64,000 nucleotides of DNA from Hyphobacterium sp. CCMP332 (lineage in GTDB: Bacteria > Bacteroidota > Bacteroidia > Cytophagales > CCMP332): NCBI GenBank assembly GCA_014323545.1, contig CP058647.1, positions 62,001-126,000 of the forward strand, given 5' to 3'. The notes below the pieces were generated by a model, which made no database searches, had not been told where the DNA came from, and saw only the letters and a list, made by a program, of their open reading frames with translations. Positions 14,267 through 20,972 of the stretch are shown one piece after another (within the stretch, counting starts at the first letter, position 1; every line of letters begins with the position of its first letter). Both the position numbers and the translations under genes were made by a program.

Positions 14267-14290
14267 ATTTTCAAAGCTTAAATCATTTTG

Positions 14291-15682
14291 ATGGCTTACC
14301 CTATTAGAGAAAAACTACTTGAAATTCCTATAATGCAAAAGGAATCAAAAGAAGTAATTGACTGGCTGCTTGCCCATAGTGTATATCGCAATGTAAAAGA
14401 AGGAGATTATTTTTTTAAGAAAGGCGACCTTGTTGAAGAAATGATAATAATTCTCGAAGGTGAAATGAATTTCATGATTGAGGCCGGTGGGAATTTTTTA
14501 AAAACAGGATCGGCAAAAAGTGGTGATATTACGGGTGTCCTGCCATTTTCACGAATGAAGGAAGCCGGAGGTACGTCACAAGTAGTAATTGATACACATT
14601 GTCTTGCTGTGCATAAAAAACACTTTTCAGAAATGGAAAGAGTTAGCCAGAGCCTTGTACAAAATCTTGTAGGACTGATGTCAGACCGTGTGAGAAGCTT
14701 TACCATGCTTCAACAACAGAGAGAGAAAATGGAGGCTTTGGGCAAAATGTCTGCCGGAATAGCACATGAAATAAACAATCCTGCTTCGGCCATTAGAAGT
14801 ACAAGTCGTGAATTGGACAAGAATTGGAAAAAGCTACAGAACTTGAGTTTTAATTTGATGAGCTCAGGACTTGAAATGAATGCAATTGAAAATATTAAAA
14901 AAATTCTTGACTTGGATTCCGAAGCAAAACCCAAACAAATTTCAATGATCGACAAAAGTAATCTTGAAGATGAAATGATAGATTATCTCGATGAGCTTGG
15001 ACTTGAAGATGGCATGGAACTCGCAGAGGATCTGATTGATCAGGGAATATATAAAGAAAAGGTAGAGGAAATTGAAAAACAGATAGGTGAAAAGAAGCTT
15101 GAAAGCTTTCTCAATTGGTTGGTTTTGAATTCCAGCGTTCATGAAATGCTTAAAGATGTAAATGAGGCATCAGAAAGAATAAGTAAACTCGTATCCTCGA
15201 TAAAATCACACTCCCATATGGATCGCGCTCCTGAGCTGGCTGAAGTGGATATAAATGATGGAATTGAAAGCACGCTTGTGATTTTCCAACATAAGATTAA
15301 AGAAAAGAACATCAATTTGATTCTTGACTTTGAAAATGATCTGCCAAAAATTCAAGGCATGGAGGGCGAACTCAACCAGGTTTGGACAAACATAATTGAT
15401 AATGCCCTTGATGCCATAGATTCTGAAGGGCAGTTAAAAATTTCGGCCGTATCTGATAAAAATTTTCTAAGTGTCAAATTTGAAGATAATGGTCCTGGAA
15501 TACCGGAAAATATTGTTAATCAAATCTTCGAACCCTTTTTTACAACAAAGGATTTGGGCAAAGGCACGGGTTTGGGGCTGGATATATCGTCCAGAATTAT
15601 TAAAGAGCACAATGGCAATATAACTGTCAACTCAAAACCCGGCCAAACTATATTTGAAATTTCACTACCAATAAATCAATGA
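14291..15682 (+). CDS. Sensor histidine kinase with N-terminal cyclic-nucleotide-binding-like domain
   Basis: 463 aa from the ATG at 14291 (a TTG immediately before is in frame). Residues about 10-130 form a cNMP-binding/Crp-like beta-roll (KEGDYFFKKGDLVEEMIIILEGEM), then a DHp helix with the H-box GKMSAGIAHEINNPASA (phospho-acceptor His159). A roughly 150-residue charged helical insert sits between the H-box helix and the rest of the kinase core. The ATPase has the N-box WTNIIDNALDAI, the G1 box DNGPGIPE and the lid/G2 FFTTKDLGKGTGLGLDI. There is no transmembrane segment, so it is a cytosolic sensor. Its stop overlaps the next gene's ATG (ATGA), and that product starts with a receiver domain, so they are an evident kinase/receiver pair. 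Ligand unknown. Confidence 0.93.
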   Translation: MAYPIREKLLEIPIMQKESKEVIDWLLAHSVYRNVKEGDYFFKKGDLVEEMIIILEGEMNFMIEAGGNFLKTGSAKSGDITGVLPFSRMKEAGGTSQVVIDTHCLAVHKKHFSEMERVSQSLVQNLVGLMSDRVRSFTMLQQQREKMEALGKMSAGIAHEINNPASAIRSTSRELDKNWKKLQNLSFNLMSSGLEMNAIENIKKILDLDSEAKPKQISMIDKSNLEDEMIDYLDELGLEDGMELAEDLIDQGIYKEKVEEIEKQIGEKKLESFLNWLVLNSSVHEMLKDVNEASERISKLVSSIKSHSHMDRAPELAEVDINDGIESTLVIFQHKIKEKNINLILDFENDLPKIQGMEGELNQVWTNIIDNALDAIDSEGQLKISAVSDKNFLSVKFEDNGPGIPENIVNQIFEPFFTTKDLGKGTGLGLDISSRIIKEHNGNITVNSKPGQTIFEISLPINQ

Positions 15683-17340
15683 GCAAAGCAATAATATTCG
15701 CAATTGATGATGACCCTCAGGTTTTAAAAGCAATAGTTAGAGATTTAAGAGGCGAATTCAGAAAGGATTACAAAATTCTTTCAACCAGTTCGGTTGAAGA
15801 AGCCCTTGAAAATATTTCCGAATTAAAAAAAAGAGGTGAGAACATAGCCCTATTCATTTCGGATCAGAAGATGCCCGAAATGCAGGGTGTAGATTTTTTG
15901 GAAAAGGCCAAATTGTCATATCCTGATGCCAAAAGGGTGCTATTAACAGCTTATTCAGATATTGAAGCAGCCATTAAAGCCATTAATGATGTGCAATTGG
16001 ATTATTATCTAATGAAACCCTGGGATCCACCGGAAGAGAAAATGTTTCCCATATTACAGGATCTTCTCGATGAATGGAATTCAAGTATAATTCCACTTTA
16101 CTCAGGTATCAAGGTCATCGGTAAACAATGGAGCTCAAAATCTCATAGTATTAAAGATTTTCTGAGTGGAAATCTTATTCCATACCAATGGCTGCCAATT
16201 GAAGATAATTCATTGGCCCTGGAATTAATGGAAGCCAATAACCTGAATTCTGAAAATTTACCGGCTGTAATAATGGAAGATGGTGAACTTCTGGTAGATC
16301 CGGACCTGAGATCCATAGCATCAAAAACCGGTAGAAATATTCAGGCCAGAGAAGAACTTTACGATGTTGTCATTATCGGAGCCGGGCCGGGTGGTCTGGC
16401 CGCCGGAGTTTACGGCGGATCAGAAGGTTTAAAGACCTTGCTTATCGAAAAACATGCTCCCGGAGGACAGGCTGGCACAAGTTCGAGAATCGAAAATTAT
16501 CTTGGATTTCCAAAAGGATTAAGTGGTGCAGAGCTGTCGCGGAGGGCAGTTGCACAGGCCACAAGGTTTGGAATTGAATTTTTATCACCTCTTGAGGTAA
16601 AGGAGATCAGAATTGAAGGGCAGTACAAATTTTTAAAACTTAATGATGATAAAGAAATTAAGTCAAAATCCGTAATAATTGCAACGGGAGTATCGTATAA
16701 AAAATTACAGGTGGAGGGGCTTGATGAATTAACCGGTCTAGGTGTGTATTACGGAGCAGCGACAACAGAAGCCAATGCCTGCAAAGACCAGCAGGTTTAT
16801 ATTGTCGGCGGTGGCAACTCGGCCGGCCAGGGTGCTATGTATCTAAGCAAGTATGCCGCAAAGGTTCATATACTTATTCGTAAGCCGGATCTCAGTTCAA
16901 GTATGTCCTCCTATTTGATCGATCAGATCAATGAAACGCCCAATATTGAGGTAATAGCCAATTCACAAATTAGCAAAGCCATTGGCAGTGAGAATTTAGA
17001 ACAATTGGAAATTGAGAATCTCAAGGATAAAAGCAAAAAATTACATCCGGCAGCCTCACTTTTTATTTTTATAGGTGCCAAGCCCATCACCGATTGGCTC
17101 GATGATAAAATTATAACCAATGATAAAGGTTTTATTGAAACGGGAAGGGATTTAACAAAACACAAAGACTATAAAAAGTTTTGGAAGAAAGATCGCGAAC
17201 CCTATCTTCTTGAAACCTGTATTCCCGGAATTTTTGCTGCAGGGGATGTTAGAGCGGGTGCAATGAACAGAGTGGCATCTGCCGTTGGTGAAGGCGCATT
17301 GGCGATCAAATTAGTTCATGAATATTTGGAAGAGATCTGA
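15679..17340 (+). CDS. Receiver / glutaredoxin-like / thioredoxin-reductase-like flavoprotein lacking redox cysteines
   Basis: 553 aa with three domains. Residues 1-135 are a response-regulator receiver (acid pocket D10-D12, phospho-acceptor D62 in SDQKMPEMQG, T90, K113). Residues about 140-218 look like a glutaredoxin/thioredoxin fold, but the CXXC position reads WSSKSH. Residues 228-553 are a thioredoxin-reductase-type flavoprotein: FAD site GAGPGGLAAG (234-243), NAD(P)H site GGGNSA (377-382) and FAAGDVRAGAMNRVASAVGEGA. The usual CATC active site is GAAT (359-362), and the only cysteines are Cys368 and one near residue 514. Fused regulator/TrxR proteins are known, but this one cannot do dithiol exchange at the usual site. 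It probably passes a kinase signal to an NAD(P)H-flavin activity; its substrate is unknown. Confidence 0.9.
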   Translation: MSKAIIFAIDDDPQVLKAIVRDLRGEFRKDYKILSTSSVEEALENISELKKRGENIALFISDQKMPEMQGVDFLEKAKLSYPDAKRVLLTAYSDIEAAIKAINDVQLDYYLMKPWDPPEEKMFPILQDLLDEWNSSIIPLYSGIKVIGKQWSSKSHSIKDFLSGNLIPYQWLPIEDNSLALELMEANNLNSENLPAVIMEDGELLVDPDLRSIASKTGRNIQAREELYDVVIIGAGPGGLAAGVYGGSEGLKTLLIEKHAPGGQAGTSSRIENYLGFPKGLSGAELSRRAVAQATRFGIEFLSPLEVKEIRIEGQYKFLKLNDDKEIKSKSVIIATGVSYKKLQVEGLDELTGLGVYYGAATTEANACKDQQVYIVGGGNSAGQGAMYLSKYAAKVHILIRKPDLSSSMSSYLIDQINETPNIEVIANSQISKAIGSENLEQLEIENLKDKSKKLHPAASLFIFIGAKPITDWLDDKIITNDKGFIETGRDLTKHKDYKKFWKKDREPYLLETCIPGIFAAGDVRAGAMNRVASAVGEGALAIKLVHEYLEEI

Positions 17341-20426: not shown

Positions 20427-20972
20427 TTATACATCAAGGTAGTACCAATCGAAGCGACTGTATTCAGAAGTGCTCAATGTACCGCTGTTATTTAAATCCC
20501 AATTGTTAAAGACGTATTCTGCCAATTCGTATTCACTGATATAATTGTCTTCATCATTGTCTATATCTGAGAAGTACTTTGTGTCATATACAACACTGTA
20601 ATATTCATTGTAATCTATTTTTCCATCTGCATTGGCATCTACAACATATGTTTCAGAATCAAATACATAATCTTGATAAAAGTAATTATAGCCTATGATC
20701 CATTCTTCATCTGATAAGTAATTATCATTATCTGAATCCAAACCAGCATACGATTCTTTAAAAAAATCTTCTTTTAACATTCCTGTAGAATTGTCCGAAC
20801 CCCATACATGATAAAATTTATCAACAAAGGTTTCAACGAATTCATGTTTTTCTATCAGGCCATCGGCATCTTTATCCCAGGTGCTAAATGTAGTATTCTC
20901 TTTCTCTTGAGCCATCAGAAATGTAAACGTCAATATAGAAATGAGTGTTATTGTTATTCTTTTGAGTTTCAT
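20427..20972 (-). CDS. Exported EF-hand calcium-binding protein
   Basis: 181 aa. A signal peptide (MKLKRITITLISILTFTFLMAQ) is followed by five EF-hand loops: DKDADGLIEKHE (33-44), DSDNDNYLSDEE (79-90), DANADGKIDYNE (112-123), DNDEDNYISEYE (138-149) and DLNNSGTLSTSE (159-170). All five have acidic residues at positions 1, 3, 5 or nearby and Glu at 12. The protein is short, acidic and rich in Tyr/Trp, with no other domain, so it is probably a periplasmic Ca2+ buffer or sensor. It has its own terminator and a 229-nt upstream gap. An odd number of EF-hands is unusual, since they normally pair; the fourth loop is the least regular in spacing. Confidence 0.88.
   Translation of the reverse strand: MKLKRITITLISILTFTFLMAQEKENTTFSTWDKDADGLIEKHEFVETFVDKFYHVWGSDNSTGMLKEDFFKESYAGLDSDNDNYLSDEEWIIGYNYFYQDYVFDSETYVVDANADGKIDYNEYYSVVYDTKYFSDIDNDEDNYISEYELAEYVFNNWDLNNSGTLSTSEYSRFDWYYLDV

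Follow-up and report, generated by a model that had tools for sequence, protein, structure and literature searches.

A histidine kinase paired with a CXXC-less receiver/thioredoxin reductase-like protein in Hyphobacterium sp. CCMP332: a candidate phosphorylation-gated flavin output unit

The window analysed here is a stretch of 64,000 nucleotides from the genome of Hyphobacterium sp. CCMP332 (contig CP058647.1, positions 62,001 to 126,000). It contains a two-gene unit that encodes a histidine kinase and a receiver-containing flavoprotein (Table 1). Re-reading of the open reading frames upheld both genes as delineated in the first-pass annotation, as well as their coupling through an ATGA overlap. 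The kinase gene begins with an ATG codon, and a TTG one codon upstream, at 14288, is where the ORF caller starts. Three genes downstream of the pair, on the minus strand (20427-20972), lies a gene for a 181-amino-acid protein with EF-hand-like DxDxDG repeats.

Table 1 Features of the kinase–flavoprotein pair, in window positions.
Feature	Position	Strand	Residues	Description
Cytosolic histidine kinase	14291..15682	+	463 aa	N-terminal cNMP-fold domain, HisKA with H159, helical insert, HATPase_c (359-462)
Kinase cNMP-fold sensor domain	14387..14650	+	~33-120	Pfam match
Kinase helical insert	14864..15088	+	~192-266	Between DHp helices 1 and 2, from the predicted model
Receiver/glutaredoxin-like/thioredoxin reductase-like protein	15679..17340	+	553 aa	Lacks CXXC
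Receiver domain	15679..16044	+		
Glutaredoxin-like domain	16111..16338	+	~145-220	S152xxS155-H156 in place of CxxC; P195 retained at the cis-Pro position
TrxR-like FAD/NAD(P)H module	16360..17340	+	228-553	CxxC-D replaced by A360-A-T-T363-E364; family motif YYGAAxTEA

The kinase had been described as a cytosolic protein with a cNMP-like sensor domain, and Pfam matches to cNMP_binding (29.0 bits, against a cut-off of 27.5), HisKA and HATPase_c agree with this. The canonical phosphate-binding cassette of cNMP domains, FGE...RxA, is replaced in this kinase by a sequence of the type GDITGxLPFSRM. In the predicted model of the kinase (mean pLDDT 88) the two DHp helices are separated by a helical insert of ~75 residues, and the HisKA match ends after helix 1. 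This insert is present across the kinase family, and is placed at an unusual site for an extra domain. The residues predicted to carry out phosphotransfer, H159 in the kinase and D62 in the receiver, are present and conserved.

In the flavoprotein, matches to Response_reg (55.1 bits, residues 6-118) and Pyr_redox_2 (130.9 bits) are found in the same open reading frame, and the TrxR-like part is matched over residues 228-550. Five receiver residues (D10, D11, D62, T90 and K113) are invariant in all 82 full-length homologues, and the full receiver with D62, T90 and K113 noted at first pass is present. The middle domain gives no glutaredoxin match in Pfam when the window sequence is used; a profile built from 12 sequences of this domain does match the glutaredoxin Rv3198.1 (2lqo) at E 7e-9. 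This profile match, together with the replaced cysteine positions, supports the earlier view of a glutaredoxin-like domain that has lost its CXXC. The nucleophile position is Ser152 in 81 of the 82 full-length proteins. The second cysteine position of the motif (S155) is Cys in four of 98 relatives, and the cis-Pro position is occupied by Pro in all 98. The only cysteines left in the window protein are, as the first-pass annotation had counted them, Cys368 and one other, which is Cys514. The flavoprotein was modelled with a mean pLDDT of 86.8, from input rows without plasmid sequences. No solved chain that matches the entire flavoprotein by sequence was found.

The TrxR-like module lacks a CxxC next to the FAD. 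The first-pass annotation was correct in stating that the motif is lost, but placed its columns one position early, at GAAT; the aligned columns are A360 and T363. The following residue, E364, aligns with the Asp that comes after the CxxC of thioredoxin reductases (the acid position), and is Glu in all 82 full-length members. The FAD motifs are conserved (GxGxxG as GAGPGG, and the C-terminal GD as GDVR), and the nucleotide motif GGGNSA is kept. To this extent the earlier statement that the FAD and NAD(P)H motifs are intact holds, but it fails for the arginines of the (H)RRxxxRA motif, which in thioredoxin reductases hold the 2'-phosphate of NADPH. Of these, the first alone is well conserved (R401, 79 of 82); K, R, G or A is found at the second position, and the third arginine is lost. 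Because two of the three are lost or replaced, the cofactor may perhaps be NADH. The full-length match to the NCBIfam thioredoxin reductase model TIGR01292 scores 245.3 bits, below the cut-off of 343.45.

The predicted TrxR part superposes at ~2 Å on the structures 5mh4, 1f6m and 3r9u, and at ~7 Å on 5mjk and 1tde. Of these, 5mh4 is the Lactococcus lactis thioredoxin reductase labelled FR, and 5mjk is its FO counterpart. NADPH meets the flavin in the FR state, while in the FO state it is the CxxC that does so. The FR-like pose would fit a protein that needs only the NADPH-to-flavin half-cycle, as judged from a prediction that stands without a control model of a canonical thioredoxin reductase.

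Relatives drawn from genomes, plasmids and fetched stretches gave 98 distinct sequences from five phyla (82 full length with a receiver, and 16 without one). None of the 98 has Cys at TrxR positions 360 or 363, or at glutaredoxin position 152, whereas the CxxC is kept in 15 of 15 canonical thioredoxin reductase controls. This is the opposite of the near-universal CXXC retention that the first-pass annotation had named as evidence against its proposal. Among 395 Bacteroidota genomes there are 48 full-length homologues with the same motifs, so the motif set does not arise by chance. In the tree, the Cys-less family forms one clade (98/99) with the receiver-fused proteins as a subclade (97/94), and the thioredoxin reductases that have CXXC form a separate clade (99/88); three FNR-like rows sit on long branches and are placed uncertainly. 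Phage matches covered only the TrxR part, in unannotated records, and are uninformative for the Cys-less family. Loss of the cysteines is thus confirmed as a hallmark of the family.

The pairing with a dedicated kinase, also proposed at first pass, holds across the family. A homologous kinase lies nearby in 63 of the 68 full-length loci where the flavoprotein ORF was recognised, and in four more where it is hidden by overlapping ORFs, giving 67 of 72 usable loci. No kinase of the family was found in the fetched flanks of L007, L008, L118 and L125, and at L126 a PAS hybrid kinase stands upstream in its place. The kinase comes first in most Bacteroidota loci and the flavoprotein comes first in most others. 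In two loci from Cyanobacteria-type genomes (L127 and L129), two family kinases stand in tandem behind a single receiver-flavoprotein gene. Among sister proteins, some have a cNMP domain fused where the receiver would be, and others (~425 aa) have neither. The input side is therefore modular; in the window pair, the cNMP-fold domain sits on the kinase.

Several other genes recur around the family. In RefSeq annotation, a small ‘UBP-type zinc finger’ gene directly follows the kinase in Streptomyces and Tsukamurella loci, and another directly precedes a cNMP-fused form. Small zf-UBP proteins recur as partners of the Cys-less family (L085, L088, L091 and Bacteroidota loci). In the 395 Bacteroidota genomes, zf-UBP is found above the Pfam cut-off in 35, the flavoprotein family in 53, and both in 32 (Fisher p 1e-29, over ten family-level groups and uncorrected for relatedness). 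Fifteen genomes were inspected singly: ten have exactly one zf-UBP, which in eight lies within ~3 kb of the flavoprotein gene. In the three zf-UBP genomes with no match to the flavoprotein, the zinc finger is fused to or adjoins a Na_H_Exchanger-TrkA_N antiporter, such that this rare domain occurs in the sample only in genomes with the flavoprotein family or with an adjoining or fused antiporter. Fusions of Na_H_Exchanger, TrkA_N and zf-UBP were also seen at L144:2467-4515 (by Pfam scan) and at L152:7668-9701 and L153:975-3002 (by BLAST match). At L143:3616-5994, the antiporter has a glutaredoxin domain (motif CPLT) at its end instead of zf-UBP. In the Cyanobacteria sample, zf-UBP adjoins one receiver-fused locus only (L130).

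A Na_H_Exchanger-TrkA_N antiporter gene is present at 14 of the 68 full-length loci, and a Bestrophin_2 gene likewise at 14; some Bacteroidota families account for most of these neighbourhood counts, which are therefore not independent. Six loci carry genes that we take to be EgtB-like (DinB_2 plus FGE-sulfatase) and EgtD-like (Methyltransf_33). At five loci, Bestrophin_2 and then the EgtB-like and EgtD-like genes lie downstream of the flavoprotein (for instance L001:4147-7014 and L012:5692-8841), an arrangement that suggests a link with ergothioneine-type thiol-histidine synthesis. The window's own genome differs from this pattern. Piecewise searches of it found neither a zf-UBP, which means that this partner is not universal, nor a close homologue of the antiporter, and the flavoprotein gene does not stand beside a CPA2 antiporter with TrkA_N. 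A bestrophin homologue (59% identity) is encoded elsewhere in the genome, and no ergothioneine-type genes are among the three of its neighbours that were scanned (GNAT, M48 peptidase and YjeF-type).

We propose that the dedicated cytosolic kinase, with its cNMP-fold sensor, would phosphorylate D62 of the partner receiver, and that the flavoprotein, with a predicted FAD, would still take hydride from NAD(P)H. With the cysteine pairs of both the TrxR-like and the glutaredoxin-like domains gone, electrons should be unable to pass to a disulfide. Phosphorylation might instead set the state of the flavin, how readily the flavoprotein reacts with a partner protein or a non-disulfide acceptor, or both. 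Fusion of a cNMP domain in place of the receiver in sister proteins fits a cNMP-fold input. The pair would then be a phosphorylation-gated, non-thiol NAD(P)H-flavin output unit under the control of the kinase, to which, arguing from sequence, we give a probability of about 0.6. The first-pass annotation had proposed a phosphorelay ending in an NAD(P)H-flavin unit, and to this can be added that the flavoprotein appears unable to perform dithiol-disulfide exchange, a point that its sequence supports well. The architecture, the invariant residues, the cysteine loss, the kinase pairing, the zf-UBP co-occurrence and the antiporter neighbourhood are direct observations, from which we infer phosphotransfer, the use of FAD and NAD(P)H, and the direction of control.

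The main rival to an output unit is a true electron-transfer enzyme with another acceptor, passing electrons from NAD(P)H via FAD to a protein, a quinone or O2, with phosphorylation switching only its rate. TrxR-like FNRs, which also lack CXXC, are nonetheless active reductases (PMC10294844), and the window protein keeps its FAD site, part of its NAD(P)H site, and a Glu at the acid position of thioredoxin reductases. It does not, however, have the C-terminal extension of the FNR type: it ends with the TrxR profile, beyond which 92 of the 98 rows extend by no more than two residues, and a ferredoxin or flavodoxin gene was not found among the scanned neighbours. We regard such an enzyme as possible, if improbable. 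Membership of the ferredoxin/flavodoxin reductases themselves was rejected, as the extension that carries the FAD-stacking residue is absent. Less probable again is that the flavoprotein acts as an input, the state of FAD/NAD(P)H tuning uptake or retention of the phosphoryl group by the receiver, so that the protein works as a redox-sensing phosphatase or sink for the kinase. The lack of a DNA-binding domain, the almost always closed pairing of kinase and regulator, and the loss of all disulfide chemistry from a protein that keeps its cofactor sites would suit this arrangement, but sister proteins in which the receiver is missing (the ~425 aa forms) or replaced by a cNMP domain are more simply accounted for with the flavin part as output.

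Retention of thiol reductase activity, through Cys368 or Cys514 and an external thiol, seems very unlikely. Cys368, five residues beyond the missing pair, is found in 57 of the 82 full-length homologues, but it is absent from the other 25 (Phe in 18 of them), Cys514 is absent from 47 of the 82, and five homologues have a single Cys in the whole protein. Neither residue is conserved, making a replacement thiol at either position improbable. Decay of a fused thioredoxin reductase within this one lineage would account for the missing cysteines and for nothing more; it is refuted by the same residues being fixed in 98 relatives over several phyla, by full-length reading frames, and by the retained kinase partner, and we give it next to no weight.

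Returning to the output-unit reading, the gene neighbourhoods suggest what might be controlled. In the wider family, the flavoprotein would probably have the small UBP zinc-finger protein as its partner and act by way of it on a Kef-like CPA2 antiporter or possibly a bestrophin, as the ancillary flavoprotein KefF does on KefC. A role in the regulation of ion transport is a tentative proposal for the family, and is rated lower for the CCMP332 organism. More speculatively still, the family could form a widespread redox-signalling module, in which either phosphorylation or a fused cNMP domain would switch the thiol-free TrxR-like flavoprotein, and this in turn would gate a bestrophin channel or a Kef-like cation/proton antiporter via a small zf-UBP protein. 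If true, ion transport would here be under flavin control of a new kind. More immediately, the naming of the family in databases as thiol reductases is probably wrong: TrxB-class regulators, and the sister proteins fused to a cNMP domain, take their names from thioredoxin reductase, and the conserved residues of the members examined preclude such chemistry. In this family a redox fold seems to have been recruited as a signalling output, and the case is a clean one that can be tested. Its gene context names the candidate partners (kinase, UBP zinc finger, antiporter, bestrophin and ergothioneine-type genes), which we did not find tied together in the open-access literature. That literature also yielded no description of the cysteine loss, of a zf-UBP partner or an antiporter/channel context, of bacterial UBP zinc fingers, or of fused receiver/TrxR proteins.

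Comparison with known systems shows which features are shared and which are not. Low-Mr TrxB has the same fold and FAD motifs as the window protein, which differs in lacking CXXC, in having Glu for the acid Asp, and in not keeping two of the three arginines for the NADPH 2'-phosphate. AhpF likewise places a TrxR-like part after a thioredoxin-fold part at the N terminus. The window protein, in contrast, has a receiver and a single glutaredoxin-like domain rather than a double thioredoxin fold with CxxC, has CXXC in neither part, and scores 150 bits with TIGR03140 against a cut-off of 502.9. The TrxR-like FNRs are also CXXC-less TrxR-like flavoproteins, but occupy a separate position in the tree (on long branches, their exact place being unsure) and have a C-terminal extension that is lacking here. 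KefF and KefG resemble part of the family in that the flavoprotein gene lies close to one for a CPA2-type antiporter with a TrkA_N (KTN) domain, and in a possible regulatory role. KefF, a flavin quinone reductase needed for full activity of KefC (PMC10224563), is however a 20-kDa FMN protein of another fold without receiver or kinase, and it is linked to the family by gene neighbourhood alone. Closer to the window protein are the RefSeq proteins named ‘Cyclic nucleotide-binding domain-containing thioredoxin-disulfide reductase’, which share the glutaredoxin-like and TrxR-like core without CXXC and also adjoin zf-UBP (L091 and L157), but have a cNMP domain in place of the receiver and, in those examined, no family kinase beside them.

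The nearest described relatives are the ‘TrxB’ class response regulators catalogued in P2CS/P2RP, exemplified by SCO7298 of Streptomyces coelicolor with its kinase SCO7297 (PMC9739842); one case is reported from a thermophilic cyanobacterium (PMC9953108), and in P2CS thioredoxin-disulfide reductase appears among the two-component enzymes as a ‘probable’ one (PMC2716373). These regulators, like the window protein, fuse a receiver to an output of the pyridine nucleotide-disulfide oxidoreductase type and have a classic kinase partner (PMC9739842, PMC9953108). As the window protein has receiver and oxidoreductase-type output in one ORF, and its kinase partner joined through ATGA, it very likely belongs to this class. 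The first-pass view that such proteins are under-described is thus only partly right: the class is already catalogued, while its cysteine loss is the part that we did not find in the open-access literature. The name of the class implies thioredoxin reductase activity, but CXXC is missing from both redox domains in the members sampled here, a set without SCO7298, and the co-occurrence of zf-UBP with this Cys-less family is new here.
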